Origin: Dromaius novaehollandiae
Taxonomy: Eukaryota > Chordata > Aves > Casuariiformes > Dromaiidae
Assembly (NCBI RefSeq): GCF_036370855.1
Contig: NC_088110.1
Coordinates: 25,482,001-25,546,000 of the forward strand
DNA length: 64,000 nt
Reading direction: 5' to 3'
The notes under the pieces are model-generated. The model worked only from the letters and a program-made list of their open reading frames with translations, made no database searches and was not told the DNA's origin. Below, piece after piece: positions 44,400 through 64,000 of this stretch (positions within the stretch are counted from its first letter, which is position 1; each line of letters starts with the position of its first letter). The position numbers and the translations under genes were made by a program.

Positions 44400-45116
44400 G
44401 CACAGACGGATGGATGCGGGGGCGGGAGCCCCCGCCGCCACAGCACGACGCAGCGGGGTCGCGCATGCGCACTGAGCGCGAACCGCTCTCAGCGGCCCTC
44501 CGGTGAGTACCACCAATTGCAGCAACGGACGGCCCCACGCATGCGCAGTGAGGCCAATCGGGTCATCGCTGCCCTCGTGTGACAACACACCAGTACTGCA
44601 GCCAGTCAGCGCTCCAATTCGCAGCACCACCGCTCTGCTCACTGCTGCCCAAGTGACTACAGACCAGTACTGCAGACAGGCGCTTGACGCATGCGCGGTG
44701 CCACATCAGTGCTCCGTGCTGCCCTCGGGTGATGACAGCCCGATACTGCACCCAACGAGGTACTGCACCCAGCGAGGGCGCGCATGCGCACGGGGCTCAC
44801 CGTGACCACTGCTGTCGTCGCGTGTCCCCAAAGCAGTAGAACACCTGCACCAGGCTAATGCGCACGGCGTGCGAGTCCCGGGGTGGCGCGGCGGGCTGCG
44901 GTTCGCCCGCGGGAGCCGGCCGCCTGCAGCGCCGCGCTGTGAGCGCGTGAGGGCGCCATTGCGGGTCTGGCCTCGCTCCTGCTCCCCCCGCCCGTTCTGC
45001 GGCCGGCGCATGCGCGGCGGGCGGGAACAAGATGGCGGCGGGCAGGGAGGACGTTTTCGCTCGGCGGCGGCGAGTGAGGGCCGAAGCCGCCTGGAGTGGA
45101 GCATGGGGGGGGTCCG
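44400..45116 (+). promoter_or_regulatory. Unit 1 NRF1/YY1 promoter and presumed first exon
   Basis: A CpG island with five perfect NRF1 octamers GCATGCGC (44463, 44539, 44689, 44782, 45008), then AAGATGGCGGC (45029-45039), the YY1 motif usually found at or just after a start site. A donor-like CCG/GTGAGG ends a presumed first exon at 45116. The block from about 44880 lines up with 55680-56897 in unit 2. Confidence 0.65.
44440..44840 (+). repeat. Degenerate NRF1-bearing repeat of about 75-120 bp, first cluster
   Basis: Recurring modules of the form GCATGCGC, then GCTGCCCTCG(C/G)GTG, then AGTACTGCA-CCAG. The same modules recur at 52490-53110 and, without the NRF1 core, at 55230-55340 and 62970-63075 (GCTGCCCTCGCGTGTC followed by GGCACTGCA or GCAGCACTGCAG). 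Confidence 0.55.
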
Positions 45117-47300
45117 GTGAGGCGAGCGCGTGCCTTCGGGTGGCCGTGGGCGTGGGGCTGTGTCCTGGCCGGTGCGGCCGTTGCTGCGTGGAGGGGGCGG
45201 TGCGGGGCGACGGCGGGGGGGGGGGGGGGCAGGCGGGCCCTGGGGCGGAATTGGGGCACGGCGTCCGCGGGGGGACGGCTCCTGTTGCGGCAGGCGTGCT
45301 CGGGAGTGCTGGTAAGTAACGAGGAAGTTTAAAACCTCTGGAGCAAACAGGGTTAAGGTCAACTTGAGTTGAGTATGATTAGTGCAGCCCCAAGTTATTT
45401 ACTTGAGAACTGCAGCTAGGTGAGCAAGAAGATGGATAGAAGGCAGACACTCCCAGGCAGTGTGAGGCCTGCCCCACTCCCGGGCACAGACTGCGGGCAC
45501 CAGCCGACCCAGGCACCAACTGATTGAACCCCCTGCTGAGCCCTGCTCCCTCCTGTACAGCTGCCCCAAAGCCACGGGCTTCCCCGGTGCAGCATGTGTC
45601 GATGGGTCCTCCGTTGCCTCTGACGTCTCCCCAGGTGCTCGTACGCTGCGCAGGGGCCTGGATGTCCCAGCAGCGGCACAGCAGCCGGATGCCTCCTCTC
45701 ATCTGGGACGCGGGGTCCTTTGCCGCTCTTCTGGGATACGGGGCCCTTGGTGAGTTCCCTGCCGCCTCTTCTGGCGTTCCCTGCGAGCTCGTAGATCCCT
45801 CCTCCTCCTGCTCTCCTCTGGTGGGGTGGGAGACCAGTGGCTCCTCGTGCAAAGCTGACAGCCACGTGCGGCACCTCTATGCACTTACTGTGCATCTGGG
45901 ATGGCACCCCCTGCCCTGAGGGCCCTGCAGAGTCACACCCTTCCTGCAGCTGCCCCCCCCCAAGCCATTAAGCCACTCACAAATCCTGCCCCAACACCCC
46001 CACAGACCCCAAAATGCCTCCAAGCCCTGCTGCAACATTGTCACTGACTCTAGACCTTCCCCTAGACTCTGTTCCAAAGCCCCAAACAGTCCTAAAACCA
46101 CTCCCAGACACAGTCCCCACAGCAGTGAGGAGTTCTAATAAAGATGGGGTGCGATCTGTGTCTCCCCCTTGACTCAGTCCCACTTCAGAGAAAAGGGCGT
46201 TTACAGCACTTCCTGGTGGAGAGTGTTGACGGGTGGATGCACAGATGACAGACAGATTTTTTTCTCTTGTCTTCCGAGCCACCTCTCGGAAGCCTCTGTA
46301 CGTGCACGATGTGGCTGATCTGGGATAATAGTGCTGTGCACTATGCTGAAGGAGAACGTTACTGTAAAATGGCAGGCTAAGGACTCTCCTAAAAAAATAA
46401 AAGGCTCAGGAAAAGCCTAAGAGAACACCAATGGGCTCTGGGAAGCCCCAGTGATGCTAGAGAAAACAGCATGGCTTTTAGGCACCTCCTCGGAGCAGGA
46501 AAAATGTCTTACTCCAGCCTGCAGGACAACGGGTACTATTAATTTACCACCTTTAATTACCACAAGCGTTGTGAAAGCAGAAGGGACAGGAGAGAAGATG
46601 CGTGGAGAAGCGTGTCGTGGGCTGTACGTAAAGTTTAAACAAGCAACCGTCCCCTCTTAAAATAGAAACAGTTTAGTCCTAAGTAACAGATGAAGGTAGC
46701 TTTGAGTAACGTGGAGAGAAGCGGTTACGTCAGTCACACTGAAAGCCTCGGAGCAGCGGTCCAAAACTCTGATGCCCTCGCGACCTCGTCAGTCTTTTTG
46801 GTTTGTTTGGCAGGGCAGTTAGTTATTTTGGCCTCCCAGAAGCAGCACCGAGGACTGAGTAACCCGTTCCTACCCCGTGGCTATCGTTAACTGTATCTGC
46901 CTTAGCGTTGCTTTGGTTGTTGCTATTTTGTTTTGTTATCGTACGTGCATATATGGAAAGGGAAAGATATAATGCTTACTTTTTTAGATTGATTGCTGTG
47001 GCTGAAGCTGAAGAGACTAAAAAGTGTGAGCAAGCTGAAGTAATAAAATTGAATGGAACCGGGTGAAAACTGTCTCCCTCTGCCAGCAAAAGGGAAAGCC
47101 CGTTCCTCCTGGCGAGGAAGGATCGCTGTTAATAGTGATCCGAATGATAGATCACCAACATATAAGGGAAGGTCTGTACACGTTACAAAAAGTATGCTGC
47201 GTACATTCATTTCTGTGCGTGTGACTTTACGTGTCTGTGAAGCATCGTACTTTAAGAGCTACGAGACAGCGAATTATCATCTTGGAGGAATGGTGGTCAG
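45117..47300 (+). repeat. Unit 1 body, paralogous to 56898-59110 of unit 2
   Basis: Long matched stretches with unit 2: CTGGATGTC(C/T)C with GCAGCGGCAC, GATGCCTCCTCTC-TCTGGGACGC, GAGTTCCCTGC, the CCCACAAATCCTGCCCCAAC block, and GTCTTTTTGGTTTGTTTGGC. Similarity looks like 80-90 percent by eye. Frames shift between copies, so it behaves as untranslated or intronic sequence. At 46820 unit 1 lacks about 0.7 kb that is present at 58343-59065. Confidence 0.7.
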
Positions 47301-51115: not shown

Positions 51116-51202
51116 GAATTGCTGGGGAGGCCCTGACCGCGGCATGTGGAAAAGACACCTTTGACTACATCCAGCTGAAGAAATGTAAGCCGAAGGATCG
51201 GA
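51116..51202 (+). other. Candidate exon D, conserved in units 2 and 3
   Basis: Acceptor TTGCTGCAG and donor GGA/GTAAGT around 87 nt in a phase 1-1 frame that includes TFDYIQLKKCKPKDR. Units 2 and 3 repeat it at about 54522-54572 and 62260-62310 as TFDYIRQKKCKPKDQGK then a stop, with the donor lost. The reading frame is kept between copies that have several substitutions, a weak sign of coding history. Family unknown. Confidence 0.35.
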
Positions 51203-51800
51203 GTAAGTGACTGCTTGTCTAGGTCTGTTACCTAGCAACACATTGTCAGAGTCTTTTTATGAGCAATCATACTCGATCAAGTGCATGTTCATTCCGTGAA
51301 TATTACTGCAAGAGTGCGTATGTTACTGATCCTTTAAAGTGAGTCCGTGGCACTGGTGGGTAGCGTGTGTTCTGAAGATTAAATCCAAGAGCAACTCATT
51401 TTGATGCTGTTCTCTTATATGAAAGCACTTGGAGCAGATGAAAACATTTATCATCCTATTTTGTTTATTGAATGGACCGTGAGACTCGGAAAAACCTGCA
51501 GCGAAGGAGACACGGTAGTCAGCTTCCTTGGAGAAGGTGCCTTGTCCTGTACTTTAGGCCTTCCTGTACATTTTTGACAGACAGTAGTGAATGACCGGTC
51601 TCCTTCGAACCCCTGGGCAGCAGAAGGTTCTGACTGGGAGGCAAAATGTTTCTTGTGGCGGGTTGGAAGAAGCTGGCTACTGATCCAAAGCAGTGACAAT
51701 TCTGGGGAGTCACGGGAAGTTTTTAAAAGACAGTCATCTCCTTTTATGGAAGGCGATGCACTTTCGTTACTGATCCCTGTAGTAATCGAGCCAGGTAAGT
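51203..51800 (+). repeat. Unit 1 tail, paralogous to 54573-55160 and 62311-62898
   Basis: Matching text such as CTGCTTGTCTAGGT-TGTTAC, ACTCGATC(A/G)AGTGC, GAAAGCACTTGGAGCAGAT, CCTATTTTGTTTATTGA and GGTTGGAAGAAGCTGGCT. A partly open segment ends at a GTAAGT donor near 51796, but frames are interrupted in all three copies. Confidence 0.65.
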
Positions 51801-52400
51801 GATACATAGGAGGTCAAGCCCATTAGTCTTTTTCATATAGTAATAGCCTTTAGGCTGTGATCGTTCTTATTAAGAAAAAGCCCAGATATTTTAGAAACTG
51901 AACAAGCCTTTTTAGCTTGTTTCCTGTAGTACCGCAAAAGGTGATCAGAATACTAATGTTTTCATGCTTTAATGTGGTAGACATATGCTGTGCAAACATC
52001 TCTGTTTAATAATAAAAACTGAGCAGTCGGTCAAGACACTAATGCAGCTTGCTTTTGGCTGTTTATTTTGTTTAACAATCGATGAAGGCGAGAGGTCGAA
52101 AGTTCTAAAGATGACCATTGCTTGTTTAATGGTTGCAAACTGTCCCGTTAAGTAGTGTGTTTGTGTGTGTGTGCTTTGTGTGTGTGTTCTTTTTTTTTAA
52201 CAGCAGCTTCTGAATACTTTTCATCTGTAGCGTATTTTGCAATGTTAGAATGAAAGCTTTGTTAATAAAGCCTCTAGTATAATACTAACTGGCTTGAGTA
52301 TGAAGTACAGAGAGTCTGTGCCTAGCAGCAGGCACTGTAAATACCTGTAGATCAGACTGGGCAGGGGCAGTGAAATGTCTCCAAAGGCCAGTGCTGGAGT
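51801..52400. other. AT-rich spacer, nothing recognised
   Basis: Includes a GT-rich microsatellite near 52157-52190 and an AATAAAG-type hexamer near 52265. No gene. Confidence 0.5.
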
Positions 52401-52439: not shown

Positions 52440-53110
52440 GGCAGCGGCTGTGGCGGTGCTGCGCGGGGGAGCCAGCCCAGGAGGCAGGTAGCGCCGCTCG
52501 CTGCCGCCCTCGCCCGCTTACAGAGCGGTACTGCAGCCGGCCGAAGAGCGCATGCGCGGTGCCCCCCCCACCCCGGCCACGCGCCTAGCTGCCCAGGGAG
52601 GGTGAGGAGCCAGCACTGCAAAAAAGGGACCGCACGCATGCGCAGTAGTTTACGGCCGCCCTAAGGCGCACGGGGGCTCGCGCATGCGCACTGGCTTAGC
52701 GGCGCTCTCTGCCGCCCGCGGGCACGGAAAGAGCACAACGGCACCCAGTGGCAGCGCGCACGCGCACCGGGTCCCTCCGCAACACCGCCCGCGCTCACTG
52801 CTGCCCTCGCGTGTCGCGATAGGGGTACTGCTCCAATGAGGCGCTCACGCGTGGTGGGGCCACAGTGCTCGCTGCTTCCCCGGGCTGTCGAAAAAGCGGT
52901 CCTGCACGCAGCGAGGGCGCACATGAGCACGGGGTTCACCGTGGTAACTGCGGCCCGGGCGTGTCACCGAAGCAGTGCAGCAGCGATCGAGCGCGCAGAA
53001 CCGCAACTGCCGCCCCCACCGACCCTCGCGTGTCGGGAAAACAACAGTGCCCCAGTAAGGGGGACGCGCATGCGCATTGCGTCCAGCGCCGCTATCTCTT
53101 GCTCTCGCGT
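52440..53110 (+). promoter_or_regulatory. Second NRF1 cluster (degenerate repeat array)
   Basis: CpG-rich block with four perfect GCATGCGC octamers (52550, 52636, 52682, 53068) and related GCGCACGCGC and GCGCACATG forms, spaced by CCCTCGCGTGTCG and AGCAGTACTGCA-like modules as in 44.4-44.8 kb. It abuts the ZNF143-like minisatellite, so this is probably a strong promoter or promoter remnant. Confidence 0.6.
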
Positions 53111-53126
53111 GTCGAAAACACTTCTG

Positions 53127-53382
53127 TCTTCCGACACTGGGCTTCCGGGAGGACGTGTTGCTTTGCGCGGCATGCCGGGAGAGGTAGTCCTCCGGCACTG
53201 GGCTTCCGGGAGACCAGGTTGCTTGGCATGGCATGCCGGGAGCAGTAGTCTTCCGGCACTGGGCTTCCGGTGGGGCCTGTTTGTTCTGAGCGCGGCATGC
53301 TGGGAGCGGTAGTCTTCCGGCACTGGGCTTCCGGGCCGCCCTTTTCGCGTGCACGGTATGCTGGGAGGTGTAGTCTTCTCAG
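53127..53382 (+). repeat. 60-bp minisatellite with ZNF143/THAP11-like and ETS motifs (unit 2)
   Basis: About four copies of GCATGC(C/T)GGGAGnnGTAGTC joined to TTCCGGCACTGGGCTTCCGG. The first part resembles the ZNF143/THAP11 element GCATGCTGGGA-nnn-GTAGT; CTTCCGG is an ETS core. Spacer segments vary (TTGCTTGGCATG, TTTGTTCTGAGC, CTTTTCGCGTGC). Confidence 0.7.
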
Positions 53383-53804
53383 GCGGGGCTACTGGATGAC
53401 CATGCTGCGCCTCTCGAGGTGGCCCCGCGGGGGGGGCGGCGGCGGCAGGTCCCTGCCAGCGGGGTTCCCAGCAGGCGGCCGCGTGGCAGGCCAGGAGCTG
53501 TAGTGCCCGCTGGGTCTGTTCCTTACTGGACATGTGTCACTCACGCCTGAGTCCCCACAGGTCACGGGGGACAGTGGAATGCCCCTGTTTTTCCCCGGTA
53601 CAGGGCAGGAAGTGTTTTCCATCTCCGATGGTGTTGCAAGACAACCTTGGAAGCTCAAAAAGAGTGTTCCTGCTGTTTAAACTAGGCAGATGAGGAGAAC
53701 ACCCCCCCCCCCCATTTCCTGGGAGGAAATAATTCTTTAATCAAGGCCATGCTAGAAGTGCTAAAGCCTTAAAGAAATAGTAAATCAAAATGTTTTGTTT
53801 TCTA
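53383..53804. other. Unit 2 segment between the minisatellite and the LTR-like element
   Basis: GC-rich at first (GGGGGGGCGGCGGCGG near 53429), then ordinary sequence and a C12 tract near 53701. Repeated at 61125-61545. No gene seen. Confidence 0.5.
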
Positions 53805-54175
53805 TGTAGACATTGCCAATTTAGCAAAGGAATTCGAGGTATCCCCGAACTGAACTGTCCTCATTATAATACAAGAAAATCACGCCCATAGGTCAGAAAG
53901 ACCTGTGCCCGGGTGAAGACCCCTCCCCTGAGCATGCGTAGTTTTAAAATGGCGTGTAAGCAATATTAGAATTGTATGTAAATCACTAACCAACCGGTGT
54001 AAGAGGGAAAGTTGCAAACCTTGCAATTTGTATAAATGCTACTTGGAAAGCCGGGGCGGGGGGGGGGGGGAGTTGCGCTTGATTTGTGGGGAAACCACCG
54101 AGCAGCCAGGCTTGCACAACTCTGAAATAAATAAGCAAATGTCTCTCCTGAGCGTGTCATTATTGGCTTAGTGCA
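53805..54175 (+). repeat. Solo LTR-like fossil (unit 2 copy)
   Basis: Starts TGTAGACATTGCC and ends GGCTTAGTGCA, so it has TG...CA ends; it contains a TATAAA-like box (TTGTATAAATGC) and, further on, GAAATAAATAAG as a poly(A) signal followed by a GT-rich end, the order expected of an LTR with U3, R and U5. No internal retroviral region is attached. The family is not identified; ends are approximate. It predates the 7.74-kb duplication because both copies carry it. Confidence 0.45.
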
Positions 54176-54521
54176 CAGCGGGCAACGAATCCGCTTTTCG
54201 GACAGCAGCGTGACCAGGCAGGGTTGTCCCCGGGGGCTGGGGCTGTCCCTCTTGGAAATGGGGAGGGCGGGAAGAGTAGGAGGGGTGCTGCGGGCTCCTG
54301 GGGGTCGTAGCTTTGCTCAGGATTGGGGCCGGTTAGGCAGCTGCTGGGAGGAGTGGCGGTGCTGGGAGGGCACGGTGCGGAGCTGTCCTGCTGTGCAGCG
54401 CAAGGGAAAGTCGACCAGCACCGTTGCTGTCCGAGGACCCTGGAACAGCCCGAGAGACCCTGGAACAGCCACCCCACGGACACCGTGTCACTGCCTCGCA
54501 AGGCCACTGCATGCAGGTACG

Positions 54522-55160
54522 TTTGACTACATCCGGCAGAAGAAATGTAAGCCGAAGGATCAGGGCAAATAGCTGCTTGTCTAGGTTTGTTACCTAGCGA
54601 CGCGCTGGCAAAGCTTTTTATGAACACCCGTACTCGATCGAGTGCGTATTCATTCTGTGAATATTAATTACTGCCAGACCGCGTACGTCACTGATGCTTT
54701 AAAGCAAGTCCGTGGCGCTGGGGTAGCACGTGTAGTGGAGGCTAAATGCAATAATACCTCGTTTTGATGTTGTTCTCTTATATGAAAGCACTTGGAGCAG
54801 ATTAAGACATTTCTCGTCCTATTTTGTTTATTGAGTGGGCCCTGATACTGGGGAGAAGCTGCCGTGAAGCAGACCTAGTAGTCAGCTTCCTTAGAGAAGG
54901 CGTCTTGTCCTGTATTTGAGGGCTTCCGGTACGTTTTGACAGACAGTAGTGAGTGACGGGTTTCCTTTGGACCCCCCGGGGAGCAGAAAGTTCTGCCGGG
55001 AAGGCAAAATGTTTCTTGCGGCTGGGTTGGAAGAAGCTGGCTGCTGATGCAAGGCAGTGACAATTCTGGGGAGTCGCGGGAAGTTTTGAAAAGACGGTCG
55101 TTCCCTTTTCTAGAAGGCTATGCACTTCGGTTCCTAATAGCTGTAGTAATGAAGCCAGGT
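54522..55160 (+). repeat. Unit 2 copy of exon-D-like segment and tail
   Basis: Counterpart of 51116-51800 in unit 1. The segment after CACTGCATGCAG keeps TFDY, KKCKPKD and then ends in a stop where unit 1 has a splice donor. The rest matches the unit 1 tail with interrupted frames. Confidence 0.6.
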
Positions 55161-55199
55161 AAGCGTTCGGGAGGAGCCCAAGCCACTTTTGTCTAGCGA

Positions 55200-55775
55200 G
55201 TATTTTGCAAGGGGGGCAGGAAAGCGCTGCGCCCTGCTCCTTGCTGCCCTCGCGTGTCTGAAAGGCGGCACTGCACGCGGGAGGGGGGCGCGCTCACGGC
55301 TGCCCTCGCGTGTCGACAAGGCAGCACTGCAGCCGCCGGCGGCCACCGCTGCGTACGGAGACCGTTGCGGGCAGCCGGCGCACACGTGCGCGCTGCCGGT
55401 CGCCGCGTTGGCCGCTACTCTGCGCTCTCTCGGGGACGGGTAAGCGCAGGGGCCGCGCTCGTGCCCCCTGCCCGGTGCTCACGGACCGGGAGCGCTTTTC
55501 CCGAGAGGGCTTTTCCTTCTCGGTGCTTCCTGGGGGCGCGGGGACGGGCAGTGCCGTCTCGGAGCTGCTCCGCGGCGCTCTCTCCCCGGGGCAGCCCCAG
55601 CGCCTGCTCGCTGAAGCCCGCCGCTGTCTCGGGCGCGGGCAGAGCAGCCTCGGGGCGCTCGCTGCTCGGCCTGAGCGCCGGGGTGGCGCGGCGGGCTGCG
55701 GTTGGCGCGCGGGAGCCGGCCGGCTGCAGCGCGGCGCTGCGACCACGCGAGGGTGGGGCCATTGCGGGTCTGGGC
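55200..55775 (+). promoter_or_regulatory. CpG-rich promoter-proximal block, unit 2
   Basis: Carries CCCTCGCGTGTC modules at 55248 and 55304, then a GC-rich block to GCCATTGCGGGTCTGG, which matches 44880-44970 in unit 1. No coding potential is claimed. Confidence 0.5.
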
Positions 55776-56381
55776 TGCCTCGCGCTGCGCTCCCCCCGCC
55801 CCTGGCGCTGCGCTCCCCCCGCCCCTCGCGCTGCGCTCCCCCCGCCCCTGGCGCTGCGCTCCCCCCGCCCCTGGCGCTGCGCTCCCCCCGCCCCTGGCGC
55901 TGCGCTCCCCCCGCCCCTGGCGCTGCGCTCCCCCCGCCCCTCGCGCTGCGCTCCCCCCGCCCCTCGCGCTGCGCTCCCCCCGCCCCTGGCGCTCCGCTCC
56001 CCCCGCCCCTCGCGCTCCGCTCCCCCCGCCCCTGGCGCTCCGCTCCCCCCGCCCCTCGCGCTGCGCTCCCCCGCCCCTCGCGCTGCGCTCCCCCCGCCCC
56101 TCGCGCTGCGCTCCCCCCGCCCCTCGCGCTCCCCCCGCCCCTCGCGCTGCGCTCCCCCCGCCCCTCGCGCTGCGCTCCCCCCGCCCCTCGCGCTCCCCCC
56201 GCCCCTGGCGCTCCGCTCCCCCCGCCCCTCGCGCTCCGCTCCCCCCGCCCCTCGCGCTCCCCCCGCCCCTCGCGCTCCCCCCGCCCCTCGCGCTCCGCTC
56301 CCCCCGCCCCTCGCGCTCCGCTCCCCCCGCCCCTCGCGCTCCGCTCCCCCCGCCCCTCGCGCTCCCCCCGCCCCTCTCGCG
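55776..56381 (+). repeat. 23-bp C-rich minisatellite, about 27 copies (unit 2)
   Basis: Unit CT(G/C)GCGCTGCGCTCCCCCCGC plus CC, 23 bp, with shorter 18-bp variants lacking GCGCT. I counted 27 occurrences. In unit 1 the same position holds a single copy (GCTCCCCCCGCCCG near 44985). It yields long arginine/proline/alanine frames in all phases that are artefacts. Confidence 0.9.
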
Positions 56382-56389
56382 CGGTCCTG

Positions 56390-56809
56390 GGCCGGCGCAC
56401 GCGCGGTGCGGCGGCGCGAGCCCTGGGCGGCCGGCGCACGCGCGGTGCGGCGGCGCGAGCCCTGGGCGGCCGGCGCACGCGCGGTGCGGCGGCGCGAGCC
56501 CTGGGCGGCCGGCGCACGCGCGGTGCGGCGGCGCGAGCCCTGGGCGGCCGGCGCACGCGCGGTGCGGCGGCGCGAGCCCTGGGCGGCCGGCGCACGCGCG
56601 GTGCGGCGGCGCGAGCCCTGGGCGGCCGGCGCACGCGCGGTGCGGCGGCGCGAGCCCTGGGCGGCCGGCGCACGCGCGGTGCGGCGGCGCGAGCCCTGGG
56701 CGGCCGGCGCACGCGCGGTGCGGCGGCGCGAGCCCTGGGCGGCCGGCGCACGCGCGGTGCGGCGGCGCGAGCCCTGGGCGGCCGGCGCACGCGCGGTGCG
56801 GCGGCGGGC
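56390..56809 (+). repeat. 39-bp NRF1-like minisatellite, 11 copies (unit 2)
   Basis: Eleven near-identical 39-bp units starting GGCCGGCGCACGCGCGGTG and continuing CGGCGGCGCGAGCCCTGGGC. Each contains GCGCACGCGC, one change from the NRF1 palindrome GCGCATGCGC at the same place in unit 1 (45006-45015), where it is single. The last unit runs straight into AAGATGGCGGC. Confidence 0.95.
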
Positions 56810-56897
56810 AAGATGGCGGCGAGCAGGGCGGGTGTTTTGGCTGGACGGCGGCGGGCGAGGGCAGAGGCGGGCTGGAGTCGAGCATGTGGGGGCCGCG
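56810..56897 (+). promoter_or_regulatory. Unit 2 YY1 site and presumed first exon
   Basis: AAGATGGCGGC (56810-56820) and the following sequence to CGCG/GTGAGG (exon end 56897) align with 45029-45116 of unit 1. The conserved donor suggests a transcript going right. Confidence 0.55.
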
Positions 56898-58342
56898 GTG
56901 AGGCGAGGTGAGGCGAGCGTGTGCCTTCGGGTGGCCGCGGGTGTCGGGCTGTGTCCTGCCAGCCGGGGCCGTCGCTGCGTGGAGGCGGCGGGGCGGGGGG
57001 GGGGAGTCGGGCCGGGGGCCGCGCCGCGCCGGGTCTGCGCGGCGCCGGGTCTGCCGGAGCGCGGCTCTGACTCTCCCTTTTGCGTGTGTCGCCTGTAGGG
57101 CCCCGGTTCCTCCCCAGCGCGGGCCGGGGCGTGCGCTCGCCCCTGCGGACGCAGCCTGGAGGAGTGTGTGTGGGGTGCCTGCGCGGGGGTCTGGATGTCT
57201 CTAGCAGCGGCACGGCAGCCTGATGCCTCCTCTCGTCTGGGACGCGGGGTCCTTGGGGAGTTCCCTGCTGCCTCCTCTGGCGTTCTCTGCGAGCTCATAG
57301 ATCCCTCCACCTCCTCTCCCCCCCCCCCCCCCGCCCCGCTCCCCTGTCTGGTGGGGTGGGAGACCGGTGGCTGCTCCCGCCGAGCTGAGAGCCACGTAGG
57401 GCACCCCATGTGCTCACTACGCATCTGGGATGGCACCCCTGCCCTGAGGGCCCCGCAGAGTCCCACCCTTCCTGCAACCAGCCCCCCCAGAGCCATTAAA
57501 CCACCCACAAATCCTGCCCCAACACCCCCACAGGCCCCAAAACGCCTCCGAGCCCTGCCGCAATGTTGTCACTGACTCCAGACCTTCCCCTGCACTCTGT
57601 GCAAGGCCCCAAACATTCCTCAAACTGCTGCCAGACCCAGTGCCCGCAGCAGTGAGGCGTTCTAACAAAGATGGGGTGCGATGTGCGTCTCCGCCTCGAC
57701 TCAGTCCCGCTTTAGAGAAACAGGAAGTTACAGCACTTCCTGGTGAAGAGTGTTGACGGGTGAATGTGCGGATGACAAAGAGACTTTTCTCTCTTTTCTT
57801 CTGAGCCGCCTCTCAGAAGCCTCTGTGTGTGCACGATGTGGCTGATCTGGGATAATCGTGCTGTGCGCAGTGCTTAAGGAGAACATTGCCCTAAAATGGA
57901 GGGCTAAGGAATAGCCTAAAAAACCTAAAAGGCTCGGGAAGAGCAAAAGAGAACACCGATGGGCTCTGGGAAGCCCCAGTGATGCTAGCGAAAACAGCGT
58001 GGCTTTTAGGCACCTCCTCAGAGCAGCAGCAATGTCTCGCTCCAGCCTATGGGACAATGGGGACTCTTAATTACCGCCTTGAATTACCACAAGTGTTGCA
58101 AAAGCAGAAGGGACTAGGGAGCATGCAGAGCAGGTTATGGACTATATGTCAAGTTTAAACAAGCAACAAGCCCCTCTGCAAACAGAAACAGGTTTAGCCC
58201 TAAGTAATAGAGGAAGGTAGCTGTGAGTAACGTGAAGCGAAGCGGTGACGTCAGTCACCCCGAAAGCCTCGGAGAAGCGGTCTGAAAATCTGGTACCCTC
58301 GCGACCTCGGCAGTCTTTTTGGTTTGTTTGGCAGGGTAGCCC
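56898..58342 (+). repeat. Unit 2 body, paralogous to 45117-46820
   Basis: Counterpart of the unit 1 body with a G8 tract near 56996 and a C14 tract near 57319. The unit 1 donor-like GGTGAGTTCC (45748) is GGGGAGTTCC here, so any exon there is not shared. No protein recognised. Confidence 0.65.
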
Positions 58343-59065
58343 ACCGAAGGGGGACATCTCGAAGAGAAGCAGCAAGACCTGGGGATCCGGTGGTTCATTT
58401 TGGTCGTCGCCTGTGAGGCCAGCATGCAAGAGTAAGAGGAAGCTAGGAGCAGTCTCAAAAAGGTAATAGGTCTGAAAGGGAGACAGGCAAATCGAGGGCT
58501 GTCGTTCCTCCACGTAGTTAAAGACCGAGAGAGTTGTCGGTTAAGCGCATGCATACGAGGGTTTGCGAACAGTAACAATAACACTGAAGCGGAATAAAAT
58601 AAGGTTTCGTGGAAGATGGCGTTAGGAAGGTATTAGGCGACGTGCCCGCCTGCCTAATAACCTAGCCCTAATTGCTGTGTGTAACGTTTCCAGACCGTTT
58701 ACCCTGCAACGTATGGTGCAAAGTGCCATATTAAGACCTTTCCCTTAAGGAAAAGAAGAAGGAAAAAAAGAAAAAAAAGGGGGAAAAAGAAAACAGGGTA
58801 AAGAGAAAAAGATCATGCATAAACCTAAGCGTTTCACTGGAAGTAAAACGCGAGTTTATCGCTTCCTTACAGAGATGGAACCGAGGACAGCAAATGCTGA
58901 CGAGGAGAAGAGACGGACGAGCGTTTGCTTGCGGTTAATACCGAAGGGACGGGATGAAACAAGGAAGCCAGAATGCAGCGGCCCCTCGATATCACCAGGA
59001 ACTGCTACAGGAGGAGGCGTTCTGGCACGGGTAACTAGGGTAAGTATCGCTAATGACCGTTAGCA
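58343..59065 (+). other. Segment present in unit 2 but missing from unit 1
   Basis: Both units share GTCTTTTTGGTTTGTTTGGCAGGG(T/C)AG; unit 1 then goes straight to TTAGTTATTTTGGCCTCCC, while unit 2 reaches CAGTTATTTCGGCCTCCCC 0.7 kb later. The extra piece is purine-rich (AAGAAGGAAAAAAAG near 58755) and holds a candidate exon at 58873-59039. It may be an insertion in unit 2 or a loss from unit 1. Confidence 0.6.
58873..59039 (+). other. Candidate exon in unit 2, 55-codon frame
   Basis: Acceptor CGCTTCCTTACAG and donor ACTAGG/GTAAGT. An ATG at 58875 opens 55 codons, phase 0 at the donor, starting MEPRTANADEEKRRTSVCLR, a basic polar sequence. No family recognised. A second donor-like GTAACT lies at 59031. 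Confidence 0.3.
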
Positions 59066-59269
59066 GTTATTTCGGCCTCCCCGAGGCAGCGCTGAGGACT
59101 AAGTAACCTGAGGGGCTCTGGCCTGGGTTAGGGCAGAAGTGCAGGCAGGCGGGATCAGGCATTTTCCTCTCAGCTCTCCAAGCTGAATCCTAGCCCTGAA
59201 GGAAAAAGCACTGGGGGGAGGCTACTCGGACACCTGCCACGTCGAGGGCAGGGGCAGGAGCTGACCCTT

Positions 59270-59295
59270 CCCCGACGGACGGACGGACGGACAGA
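59270..59295 (+). repeat. (GACG)n tetranucleotide run
   Basis: About five GACG units followed by GACA and GACG. Confidence 0.75.
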
Positions 59296-59699
59296 CGCTG
59301 GTGCGGCGGTGACTCTTTGGATATCGTAGGTAAGGGGAGGCACGCTGGTGCCGAGCTCCAGGGCGGTTTGCCTGAACACGATGCCCGGGGCAGGAGGTTA
59401 CGCATTGTGTCCGGGGCTGGGAGCTGGTCCCCGAGTCCCATGTACTTGGGAGTGCCTGCGCTTGCCAGGGAGCCCGGTGCTGTTCCCAGAGCTGCGGGGA
59501 ATTTCCCTTGCGTTGCCTGGACCCTCGGGGCTCTTGGGGGTGTTTCCCCTCATCGCAAGGGCAGCCAGAGCCCCTCCAGGGCTGCGTGAGGTCCCCGAAC
59601 CGCTCCCGGATTTGCTTTTGGCACTCCGCAGTGTCGCTCGTGTGCCTGGGGCAGCCTGCAGGCGCCATCCTGTCAGCCGCGTTGAGCCCTGCGGCGTGC

Positions 59700-59990
59700 C
59701 TGGTGACCCCTCTGGTGTGCGCCAAGGCCCTTCCTCTGTATTTTGGTCTGCCCCAGAGCCCTGCACTTGCCCTCTGATGCCCTCAGGACCCCTCAGTTCA
59801 CATTCTGGGTTGCCCCCGAGCCCTCTGCGTGCCTTTCGGTGCGCCCCGTGGCCCCGTGTGTGTTTTGCGGCACGCCGCAGAGGTCTCTGTTTAGCTTTTT
59901 CTCCTGTCCTGGAGTTTTCTGGGTGCTTCTGGGTGTGCCCCAGGGCCCTCCTTTTGGTGCCCCCAGAGTCACTCTGTTTGCTCTATCGTT

Positions 59991-60028
<38 letters not shown>

Positions 60029-60100
60029 CTTGACTTGTGTTGCACCCAGAGCTCTCGATTTGTTCTCTTGTGCTCCGCATACTCCCCTTTCCGCACTCTA
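59700..60100 (+). repeat. Degenerate tandem repeat of about 45-60 bp interrupted by a long T tract
   Basis: Recurring GTGC-CCCAGAGCCCTC then TTTG-CTCT phrases (59745, 59812, 59875, 59935, 60045). A run of about 34 T lies at 59995-60028 inside one unit; repeat text continues on both sides, so it looks like in-place expansion and not a retroposed tail. Confidence 0.55.
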
Positions 60101-60259
60101 CACCCCAGGCAGGGCTCTCCCTTCAGCTCTCAGCAAGCTGCTGTCAGGAGAGTGGGGGTGCCTCTGCTGCCCTGGCAGCCCCAGCTGTCCCTGAAGGGGC
60201 TGATGGCCAGGCCCCCTGCCCAGTTCCTGCAGGCCCACAGCTGCGGGCCCTGGGGCTGG

Positions 60260-60905
60260 GATGAATGCCAGGGGGAGCTGGGTGGCAGGACAGGCCCCAG
60301 GTGGGGCTGATGGCAAGGGCAGGCCCACATTTGGGGGCTGGGGCCGCAGTTGGGGGGAGCTGGCGCTGGGGCAGGAGCTGGGCAGCGGAGCTGCCACGGA
60401 GCACGGCCCTTCGGGACCAGCCCGGCGGCCGCCCCGCGGAGGAGGTGAGCGGGGCCGGGGGAGGCGCACTGCAGGCTGCGGGTCCCGCATGTGCCGGGGG
60501 TCCCGGCGGCTGGGAGCGTCCCGGGGCCACGGAGGCGGGGGGAGGAAGGGGGTGCGCCGGGGCTGTGGTGCGGTTTACTGCGCGGTCGGAGGAGCGCGGG
60601 GGGGGGGTCTCCTGTGTCAGCTCGGGAGCGTGTCGGGGAGCGGGGGGAGGAGGGTCGTGGAGGGGCGGGGGCAGTGTCGGAGCTGAGGCGGGGCCGGTCG
60701 CGGGGGTGTCGGGGGAGCCCCGGGCCGGTGGTGGGGCTGGCGGGGCCGCGCTCGGGGCTCTGCGGCCGTTTCCGGGGGGGACAGGGGGGAAGGGGAAGGG
60801 GGGCGGGACGGAAAGGAACGGAATGTGCCGAGGGTCAAAGGTGCCCCAGCGCTGCGGGTGGGGGGCGGGCGTTGGGGTGCGGGAATGCGGGGAGCCGTAG
60901 CTTTC
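60260..60905 (+). promoter_or_regulatory. CpG-rich block at the end of unit 2
   Basis: Strongly GC-rich with G-runs (60600-60607, 60775, 60800) and a GAGGTGAGCG donor-like site near 60441. It lies just before the next ZNF143-like minisatellite. It is promoter-like, but no start site motif is clear. Confidence 0.4.
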
Positions 60906-60911
60906 GGCGCG

Positions 60912-61125
60912 GCATGCCGGGAGCAGTAGTCTTCCGGCACTGGGCTTCCGGTGGGGCCTGTTTGTTCTGAGCGCGGCATGCTGGGAGCGGTAGTCTTCCG
61001 GCACTGGGCTTCCGGGCGGCCATGTTGCTTGGCATGGCATGCCGGGAGCAGTAGTCTTCCGGCACTGGGCTTCCGGGCCGCCCTTTTCGCGTGCACGGTA
61101 TGCTGGGAGGTGTAGTCTTCTCAGG
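60912..61125 (+). repeat. 60-bp ZNF143/THAP11-like plus ETS minisatellite (unit 3)
   Basis: Four GCATGC-type motif copies at about 60912, 60975, 61038 and 61099. The spacer order is TTTGTTCTGAGC, ATGTTGCTTGGC, CTTTTCGCGTGC, which differs from unit 2. Confidence 0.7.
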
Positions 61126-61545
61126 CGGGGCTACTGGGTGACCATGCTGCGCCTCTCGAGGTGGCCCCGCGGGGGGGGCGGCGGCGGCAGGTCCCTGCCA
61201 GCGGGGTTCCCAGCAGGCGGCCGCGTGGCAGGCCAGGAGCTGTAGTGCCCGCTGGGTCTGTTCCTTACTGGACATGTGTCACTCACGCCTGAGTCCCCAC
61301 AGGTCACGGGGGACAGTGGAATGCCCCTGTTTTTCCCCGGTACAGGGCAGGAAGTGTTTTCCATCTCCGATGGTGTTGCAAGACAACCTTGGAAGCTCAG
61401 AAAGAGTGTTCCTGCTGTTTAAACTAGGCAGATGAGGAGAACCCCCCCCCCCCCATTTCCTGGGAGGAAATAATTCTTTAATCAAGGCCATGCTAGAAGT
61501 GCTAAAGCCTTAAAGAAATAGTAAATCAAAATGTTTTGTTTTCTA

Positions 61546-61913
61546 TGTAGACGTTGCCAATTTAGCAAAGGAATTCGAGGTATCCCCGAACTGAACTGTC
61601 CTCATTATAATACAAGAAAATCACGCCCATAGGTCAGAAAGACCTGTGCCCGGGTGAAGACCCCTCCCCTGAGCATGCGTAGTTTTAAAATGGCGTGTAA
61701 GCAATATTAGAATTGTATGTAAATCACTAACCAACCGGTGTAAGAGGGAAAGTTGCAAACCTTGCAACTTGTATAAATGCTACTTGGAAAGCCGGGGCGG
61801 GGGGGGGGAGTTGCGCTTGATTTGTGGGGAAACCACCGAGCAGCCAGGCTTGCACAACTCTGAAATAAATAAGCAAATGTCTCTCCTGAGCGTGTCATTA
61901 TTGGCTTAGTGCA
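61546..61913 (+). repeat. Solo LTR-like fossil (unit 3 copy)
   Basis: Duplicate of 53805-54175, with the same ends, TATA-like box and poly(A) signal. Its presence here results from segmental duplication and not a second insertion. Confidence 0.45.
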
Positions 61914-62259
61914 CAGCGGGCAACGAATCCGCTTTTCGGACAGCAGCGTGACCAGGCAGGGTTGTCCCCGGGGGCTGGGGCTGTCCCTCTTGGAAATGGG
62001 GAGGGCGGGAAGAGTAGGAGGGGTGCTGCGGGCTCCTGGGGGTCGTAGCTTTGCTCAGGATTGGGGCCGGTTAGGCAGCTGCTGGGAGGAGTGGCGGTGC
62101 TGGGAGGGCACGGTGCGGAGCTGTCCTGCTGTGCAGCGCAAGGGAAAGTCGACCAGCACCGTTGCTGTCCGAGGACCCTGGAACAGCCCGAGAGACCCTG
62201 GAACAGCCACCCCACGGACACCGTGTCACTGCCTCGCAAGGCCACTGCATGCAGGTACG

Positions 62260-62898
62260 TTTGACTACATCCGGCAGAAGAAATGTAAGCCGAAGGATCA
62301 GGGCAAATAGCTGCTTGTCTAGGTTTGTTACCTAGCGACGCGCTGGCAAAGCTTTTTATGAACACCCGTACTCGATCGAGTGCGTATTCATTCTGTGAAT
62401 ATTAATTACTGCCAGACCGCGTACGTCACTGATGCTTTAAAGCAAGTCCGTGGCGCTGGGGTAGCACGTGTAGTGGAGGCTAAATGCAATAATACCTCGT
62501 TTTGATGTTGTTCTCTTATACGAAAGCACTTGGAGCAGATTAAGACATTTCTCGTCCTATTTTGTTTATTGAGTGGGCCCTGATACTGGGGAGAAGCTGC
62601 CGTGAAGCAGACCTAGTAGTCAGCTTCCTTAGAGAAGGCGTCTTGTCCTGTATTTGAGGGCTTCCGGTACGTTTTGACAGACAGTAGTGAGTGACGGGTT
62701 TCCTTTGGACCCCCCGGGGAGCAGAAAGTTCTGCCGGGAAGGCAAAATGTTTCTTGCGGCTGGGTTGGAAGAAGCTGGCTGCTGATGCAAGGCAGTGACA
62801 ATTCTGGGGAGTCGCGGGAAGTTTTGAAAAGACGGTCGTTCCCTTTTCTAGAAGGCTATGCACTTCGGTTCCTAATAGCTGTAGTAATGAAGCCAGGT
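62260..62898 (+). repeat. Unit 3 copy of exon-D-like segment and tail
   Basis: Almost identical to 54522-55160, including the stop that replaces the unit 1 donor. Confidence 0.6.
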
Positions 62899-63515
62899 AA
62901 GCGTTCGGGAGGAGCCCAAGCCACTTTTGTCTAGCGAGTATTTTGCAAGGGGGGCAGGAAAGCGCTGCGCCCTGCTCCTTGCTGCCCTCGCGTGTCTGAA
63001 AGGCGGCACTGCACGCGGGAGGGGGGCGCGCTCATGGCTGCCCTCGCGTGTCGACAAGGCAGCACTGCAGCCGCCGGCGGCCACCGCTGCGTACGGAGAC
63101 CGTTGCGGGCAGCCGGCGCACACGTGCGCGCTGCCGGTCGCCGCGTTGGCCGCTACTCTGCGCTCTCTCGGGGACGGGTAAGCGCAGGGGCCGCGCTCGT
63201 GCCCCCTGCCCGGTGCTCACGGACCGGGAGCGCTTTTCCCGAGAGGGCTTTTCCTTCTCGGTGCTTCCTGGGGGCGCGGGGACGGGCAGTGCCCTCTCGG
63301 AGCTGCTCCGCGGCGCTCTCTCCCCGGGGCAGCCCCAGCGCCTGCTCGCTGAAGCCCGCCGCTCTCTCGGGCGCGGGCAGAGCAGCCTCGGGGCGCTCGC
63401 TGCTCGGCCTGAGCGCCGGGGTGGCGCGGCGGGCTGCGGTTGGCGCGCGGGAGCCGGCCGGCTGCAGCGCGGCGCTGCGACCACGCGAGGGTGGGGCCAT
63501 TGCGGGTCTGGGCTG

Positions 63516-63791
63516 CCTCGCGCTGCGCTCCCCCCGCCCCTGGCGCTGCGCTCCCCCCGCCCCTGGCGCTGCGCTCCCCCCGCCCCTGGCGCTGCGCTCC
63601 CCCCGCCCCTGGCGCTGCGCTCCCCCCGCCCCTGGCGCTGCGCTCCCCCCGCCCCTGGCGCTCCGCTCCCCCCGCCCCTGGCGCTCCGCTCCCCCCGCCC
63701 CTCGCGCTCCGCTCCCCCCGCCCCTCGCGCTCCGCTCCCCCCGCCCCTCGCGCTCCGCTCCCCCCGCCCCTCGCGCTCCCCCCGCCCCTCT
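63516..63791 (+). repeat. 23-bp C-rich minisatellite, about 12 copies (unit 3)
   Basis: Same unit as at 55776-56381 but only 12 copies against 27, showing rapid length change after the duplication. Confidence 0.9.
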
Positions 63792-63802
63792 CGCGCGGTC
63801 CT

Positions 63803-64000
63803 GGGCCGGCGCACGCGCGGTGCGGCGGCGCGAGCCCTGGGCGGCCGGCGCACGCGCGGTGCGGCGGCGCGAGCCCTGGGCGGCCGGCGCACGCGCGGTG
63901 CGGCGGCGCGAGCCCTGGGCGGCCGGCGCACGCGCGGTGCGGCGGCGCGAGCCCTGGGCGGCCGGCGCACGCGCGGTGCGGCGGCGCGAGCCCTGGGCGG
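63803..64000 (+). repeat. 39-bp NRF1-like minisatellite, at least 5 copies (unit 3, open at window end)
   Basis: Same 39-bp unit as at 56390-56809. Five copies are visible before the window stops. Confidence 0.95.

Follow-up and report, generated by a model that had tools for sequence, protein, structure and literature searches.

The DNA examined here is a 64,000-nucleotide stretch of the emu genome (Dromaius novaehollandiae, RefSeq assembly GCF_036370855.1, contig NC_088110.1, here C13, positions 25482001-25546000; "the window"), in which ordinary genes are followed by a tandem array of multi-kilobase units, each with a promoter-like CpG block. All results come from this one assembly, which holds 1.468 Gb in 271 contigs. 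C13 is 25,914,127 bases long and its + strand finishes in (TTAGGG)n; the window ends 368 kb from this telomeric end, and its + strand runs telomere-ward. We added 114 kb of adjoining sequence, giving 178 kb read in all, with zero N. On the gene side, 2 of 3 open reading frames (ORFs) matched Pfam families above the cut-off (sulfotransferase and TMEM231) and the third was without a match, which bears out the statement of an earlier sequence-only reading that the array adjoins ordinary genes.

The same reading had described a tandem duplication at an offset of 7742 bp, and the repeat is genuine. The modal offset was 7738 bp (1795 shared 14-mers), accompanied by 7742 (361) and 7741 bp (325) because of small indels. 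BLAST aligned 53157-56069 with 60897-63801 at 98.1% identity, and whole-unit alignment of units 1 and 2 gave 99.26% over 7433 aligned bases. As anticipated, the window stops within unit 2 and the array goes on: the extended sequence holds five such units, here called A units, starting at about 53157, 60897, 69283, 79805 and 87953 and reaching about 95290. Their lengths are 7741, 8386, 10448, 8148 and 7338 bp, and their mutual identity is 98.87-99.78%. The differences in length come in part from a segment of about 934 bp that is duplicated in tandem within the units: units 1 and 5 have a single copy, units 2 and 4 have two, and unit 3 has four. Five tandem units of this size are the arrangement that defines a macrosatellite. 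Outward of the A array lie related, CpG-depleted B units together with a 162-bp satellite, and then TTAGGG. The 162-bp satellite was found in 6 of 6 samples of 4 kb taken from C13 at 25.66, 25.70, 25.75, 25.80, 25.85 and 25.89 Mb, the first of which also contained a B unit, and the sample next inward of the telomere was mostly N.

The proposal that every unit carries a promoter-like CpG block was also confirmed in each of the five units read. All five contain 61-bp ZNF143/ETS-like repeats, a solo-long terminal repeat (LTR)-like insert, and a CpG island in which 11-14 NRF1-like sites stand in tandem next to a YY1-like site (Table 1); the NRF1-like sites number 11, 12, 14, 11 and 14 in units 1-5. 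GCGCAYGCGC has 29 matches in the window against 0.12 expected (palindromes counted on both strands), and AAGATGGCGGC sits 25 bp from the last NRF1-like site, start to start. NRF1, YY1 and ETS are the factors to which we take these motifs to correspond, the NRF1 consensus included. In the 61-bp repeats, GCATGCYGGGAGNNGTAGTC occurs three times each in units 1 and 2 (in unit 1 at 53170, 53231 and 53295) and in 0 of 100 shuffles; on the opposite strand the repeat element reads ACTACNNCTCCCRGCATGC, a partial match to the ZNF143/THAP11 site. The published SBS2 motif is AAACTACAATTCCCATTATGCACCGCG, with ACTACA as a joint ZNF143/THAP11 submotif (PMC7154149). The insert has TG...CA ends and GTGT/GCGT flanks with one mismatch, and the B unit presents the empty site; these features fit a solo-LTR-like insertion, with a deletion in B as a possible alternative. 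Among the matches listed for an exact 41-mer of the insert, 99 of 100 lay in end arrays and one was an interstitial copy with flanking unit sequence, and the best 40 scored places were filled by array copies. The CpG-rich part at 58226-59125 is a possible second regulatory island of the A unit. A TGACGTCA (CRE-like, for cAMP response element) sequence lies near 58246, within this part.

Table 1. Positions of the repeat-unit features in the window (o/e, observed to expected ratio)
Feature	Position	Strand	Remarks
Unit 0, first part (promoter and downstream segments)	44862..46818	+	without the 23-bp and 39-bp arrays; permissive BLAST
Single NRF1-like site (45006) and YY1-like element (45029)	45006..45039	+	in unit 0; 23 bp apart
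Unit 0, second part	51157..51829	+	81.5% to 54519-55194
Four GCGCAYGCGC sites just ahead of the array	52548..53075	+	at 52548, 52680, 52756, 53066
Head of unit 1, 61-bp repeats	53126..53378	+	period 61, 4.1 copies, 78% matches; ZNF143/THAP11-like element and CTTCCGG (ETS-like)
A unit 1	53229..60969	+	7741 bp; boundaries set for alignment
Solo-LTR-like insert, unit 1	53635..54207	+	573 bp; TG...CA, TATAAA, AATAAA; flanks GTGT / GCGT; boundaries by eye
CpG island	55226..57025	+	GC 0.73-0.90, CpG o/e 0.91-1.31 in 300-bp windows
23-bp C-rich tandem repeat, unit 1	55778..56363	+	26.4 copies
39-bp tandem repeat, unit 1	56390..56806	+	10.7 copies, 100% matches; one GCGCACGCGC per copy, 11 sites
YY1-like element AAGATGGCGGC	56810..56820	+	2 in window against 0.02 expected; presumed start-site region
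CpG-rich part at moderate GC	58226..59125	+	CpG o/e 0.85-1.05, GC 0.43-0.54; from 58344 re-duplicated, period about 934 bp, in units 2-4
Head of unit 2, 61-bp repeats	60906..61120	+	3.5 copies
A unit 2, cut by window end	60970..64000	+	BLAST, whole-unit alignment
Solo-LTR-like insert, unit 2	61377..61945	+	match 61393-61943 to the insert part searched; ends extrapolated from unit 1
23-bp tandem repeat, unit 2	63516..63777	+	11.4 copies
39-bp NRF1-like repeat, unit 2	63804..64000	+	runs past the window; 12 sites in all

A diverged, older copy in two parts, here unit 0, directly precedes the array. By permissive BLAST its first part matched 57179-58339 at 81.3% and 56643-57067 at 70.8%, and global alignment with A over 57179-58339 gave 86.4% identity over 1132 bases. 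Unit 0 has a single NRF1-like core with one YY1-like element; the 39-bp array therefore seems to have arisen by amplification of such a core, and the core in unit 0 presumably represents the array in single-copy form.

The units are found far beyond C13. Exact tags were counted across the assembly, and their positions were taken from about the first 100 matches listed, in contig order. The totals were 336 for a start-site 40-mer, 300 for an 81-mer covering NRF1-NRF1-YY1, 337 for the LTR-like 41-mer and 102 for a B-head 41-mer. Among the matches listed, 100 of 100 start-site tags and 94 of 100 B-head tags face the nearest contig end; the six exceptions among the B-head tags come from contigs of 20-498 kb. 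Of the 200 A start-site and B-head matches listed, 180 are on contigs larger than 5 Mb, and all 180 face the end and lie within 508 kb of it. Two lists of the 40 best matches behaved alike, with 33/33 and 34/34 of those on contigs larger than 5 Mb facing the end (farthest 537 kb) and the remaining 7 and 6 unplaced. By hand tally, A or B units occur at at least 26 ends of contigs larger than 5 Mb, plus the start of C10, and at 11 of the 12 ends with both types A is nearer the genes than B (C1R, C2R, C3L, C5L, C7L, C8R, C9L, C12R, C13R, C16R and C17L); C20R is mixed. A location at chromosome ends shared by non-homologous ends, as in macrosatellites, thus holds for the family with one interstitial exception.

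Contigs C7 and C9 begin with telomere repeats; C1, C2, C3, C14 and C20 break off within A, B or satellite repeats, and the start of C17 is N. In the sequence adjoining the telomere tracts (8.4 kb in C7 and 5.2 kb in C9), no NRF1, ZNF143 or YY1 core was found on either strand; the C7 stretch has two ETS cores. Both stretches have a CpG o/e of up to 0.66 and no match to A, B, the satellite or the gene-side flank, and neither the window nor the first 9.4 kb of C7 and C9 gave a gathering-level match to any Rfam family. The two stretches have CTGCCCCCTGGTGGTCAG in common, at a distance of a few hundred bases from the telomere tract, in what we take to be a good match to the CTCF consensus. On C231, an unplaced contig of 210,547 bases, 17 of the best 40 matches to an A-unit segment lie between 53 and 205 kb, and the contig is likely to be a fragment missing from one of the chromosome ends. 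Deep inside C1 (30378703-30483382, about 100 kb) there are also many separate short (TTAGGG)n blocks, on one strand among the matches listed; they may represent a telomere-like satellite of a centromere or of a fusion point.

The sequence-only reading had taken the duplication to be very recent, and as a local event this was not supported: the units are members of a subtelomeric family spread over many chromosomes, with 99.0-99.6% identity across contigs. We compared 12 copies from five contigs over 2.3 kb. Pairs within a contig (n = 13) had a mean identity of 99.67% (99.35-100) and pairs between contigs (n = 53) a mean of 99.27% (99.00-99.57), the latter biased high, since the seven copies from contigs other than C13 had been drawn from the best matches. 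In the tree, unit 4 of C13 clusters with C16 copies (support 0.84) and not with its neighbouring units. This pattern of similarity, together with the tree, fits sequence exchange between non-homologous ends. As copies are nearly as alike across contigs as within them, the high identity would reflect exchange as well as youth, and given such exchange, identity cannot serve as the age of the local duplication. Over 941 bases, two A copies at C10:1528-11336 rank with the copies most similar to the C13 units (identity given as 100%), ahead of the listed C16 or C17 copies, which may point to an exchange between C10 and C13 in recent times.

CpG content differs sharply along the chromosome end. The CpG o/e was 0.81 for unit 1 and 0.70 for unit 0, as against 0.31 for the B core, 0.20 for the satellite and 0.19 for gene-side sequence. 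In hand-chosen segments we compared which copy retains the CpG at sites of CpG transition. Between A and B, CpG was retained in A at 43 sites and in B at 11 (p = 1.4e-5), and between A and unit 0 it was retained in A at 42 and in unit 0 at 16 (p = 9e-4). The post-array stretch compared with unit 0 gave 44 against 30 (p = 0.13). Retention in A suggests that germline methylation is lower in the A units.

Taken together, these observations make it fairly probable, in our judgement, that the array is a subtelomeric macrosatellite homogenised between chromosome ends, with telomere-facing noncoding promoters; promoter activity, telomere-ward noncoding RNA and roles for the named factors are what we infer from the motifs and their arrangement. 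Under this reading, unequal exchange would have grown the array from an ancestor resembling unit 0, whose single NRF1/YY1 core would have multiplied to give the 39-bp array. Ectopic recombination among chromosome ends would spread and homogenise the units and keep their polarity. The block would be a CpG-island promoter of the ubiquitous type, little methylated in the germ line, and would start a noncoding RNA running telomere-ward.

Several findings weigh against this proposal, among them the possible short first exon treated with the coding alternative below. Exact tags are equally many in the promoter (336) and LTR-like (337) parts, with no sign of extra constraint on the promoter. In the diverged comparisons, CpG transitions occurred at 4.3-12 times the non-CpG rate (5.6-6.0 times for A versus unit 0), and methylation has therefore acted on at least one of the lineages compared. 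Among present copies, where counts are small, the ratio of CpG to non-CpG transitions was similar in the two types, at 3.0-4.6 for A and 4.6 for B. Identity between A and B is 93% at the head element and equally high in other parts. ZNF143 motifs in mouse SINE/B2 (short interspersed element) copies are reported as unbound, so that motifs carried by repeats need not be bound (PMC11687419). Finally, one of the 100 LTR-like matches listed is an A copy inside C6, at 2.12 Mb, that faces away from the nearer end. In the 2 kb of C6:2118401-2120400, unit sequence flanks the insert at 94.5% (over 1526 bases) and 93.6%; for that reason the match was rejected as an independent dispersed LTR, and it perhaps marks a former chromosome end that was moved or inverted.

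The main rival holds that the units are an inert satellite, passengers of chromosome-end recombination, whose motifs would be relics of an ancestral CpG-island promoter and LTR kept by homogenisation alone; polarity would be fixed because inverted exchange between ends yields unstable products. We regard it as a serious but clearly less probable alternative. The equal tag counts fit it, and for this reason the promoter reading as a whole is held at no more than moderate confidence; homogenisation across contigs and B units that look like CpG-decayed relatives also speak for it. Against it, A keeps CpGs that were lost in B (43:11) and in unit 0 (42:16), and its island retains a CpG o/e of 0.91-1.31. 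Such retention suggests a lasting lack of germline methylation in A, with biased gene conversion as an alternative cause.

Another possibility, which we consider improbable, is that the proximal CpG-rich units form a boundary or insulator array that parts the gene domain from telomeric satellite heterochromatin, transcription being incidental. The position of A between unique DNA and B or satellite at 11 of the 12 ends counted above, and the drop in CpG o/e from 0.81 in A to 0.31 in B and 0.20 in the satellite, would suit such a role, but the layering and the CpG step fit a promoter array too, and ZNF143 has been argued to act in transcription and not in looping (PMC11687419).

An array of protein-coding genes is very unlikely. 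In this case the ATG of the YY1-like element would begin a first exon some 28 codons long (MAA..R..V.A..R.R.EA.WS.A, common to A and unit 0), and the frame is indeed open in both. When A was aligned with unit 0 over 56770-57067, mismatches by codon phase were 22, 10 and 10 (p = 0.03, uncorrected), with the excess in the third position of this frame, and its first 26 codons carry 6 synonymous and 9 nonsynonymous changes (ratio of nonsynonymous to synonymous proportions, pN/pS, 0.58). These changes are few, and only 4 of the 14 gaps in this segment are multiples of three. The other segments showed no or weak phase bias, with mismatches of 51, 48 and 55 (p = 0.79) and 1 of 16 gaps a multiple of three over 57179-58339, and of 36, 29 and 50 (p = 0.05) and 0 of 7 gaps over 54519-55194. 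Pfam gave no match at E up to 0.1 for seven unit ORFs among the ten ORFs scanned, a subset of the possible ORFs and spliced exons. Any coding signal in the units would thus be absent or too weak to call, and the evidence for a short first exon at this ATG, possible as it is, is too little to call. An assembly duplication showing one copy several times, to which the very high identity between units might point, is the least credible explanation of all, since the units differ in length, internal duplications and NRF1-site number and the 178 kb read has no N, and the start-site tag has 336 copies.

The closest working analogue appears to be the human 61-29-37 promoters of telomeric repeat-containing RNA (TERRA), in which short repeats with NRF1 sites make up CpG islands at many chromosome ends (PMC6600276, PMC12242772). 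In both systems, short tandem repeats with NRF1 or NRF1-like sites form a CpG island that recurs at many ends and is oriented telomere-ward; the human 29-bp unit has two putative NRF1 sites, whereas the emu 39-bp unit has one NRF1-like site in an island with a CpG o/e of 0.91-1.31. The repeat lengths are 61-23-39 in emu and 61-29-37 in human, a likeness of layout and not one drawn from sequence comparison. Unlike TERRA promoters, the emu units can stand about ten or more per array, hundreds of kilobases from the telomere with satellite between. Because a TERRA promoter lies near the telomere tract, while the C13 array is about 368 kb inside and the terminal 8.4 and 5.2 kb of C7 and C9 are without the module, we did not file the units as TERRA promoters.

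In structure, the nearest analogue would be D4Z4. That element is subtelomeric, GC- and CpG-rich, has a promoter in each unit, exchanges sequence between non-homologous ends and contains the DUX4 retrogene. The emu family shares with this human 4q/10q macrosatellite (PMC8350899, PMC5849414) the tandem subtelomeric GC- and CpG-rich units, the promoter or promoter-like block per unit and the exchange between non-homologous ends; it differs in occupying at least 26 ends of large contigs and in having, among its seven unit ORFs (Pfam, E up to 0.1), none of the DUX4 kind. Among birds, the 41-bp subtelomeric repeat PO41 of chicken and quail is transcribed by RNA polymerase II from both strands in somatic cells and so demonstrates that such repeats can be transcribed, but its abstract describes no multi-kilobase promoter-bearing unit (PMC4301066). 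The 5-kb CenTe_5k of chicken, situated next to telomere and CNM clusters on the short arms of 19 acrocentric micro- and dot chromosomes, is likewise a conserved multi-kilobase sequence common to many bird chromosome ends, but is not described as a promoter-bearing tandem array in the corresponding part of its report (PMC9974502). Among the papers listed by searches on bird subtelomeres, none had a title or abstract opening that describes a promoter-bearing subtelomeric macrosatellite in birds; preprints and most subscription journals fall outside this scope, and we make no claim of absence from print.

A bolder form of the promoter reading, which we put forward tentatively and think unlikely as a whole, is that hundreds of near-identical, germline-unmethylated, telomere-facing promoters, each composed of tandem NRF1 sites and ZNF143/ETS repeats, jointly produce a long noncoding RNA of the subtelomere that might extend as far as the telomere. 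They would be a bird counterpart of the mammalian TERRA promoters, of independent origin but with a like design of short NRF1-bearing tandem repeats in a CpG island, set as a multi-unit array to the gene side of the satellite. What seemed a local duplication has turned out to be part of a polarised subtelomere layout present at many ends, running from genes through promoter-bearing arrays and decayed units with satellite to the telomere. Even if the units are inert, they document efficient sequence exchange among many non-homologous ends. If the islands are active, they would offer a sequence-defined place for studying transcription at bird chromosome ends and a possible repeated origin of NRF1-driven subtelomeric transcription.

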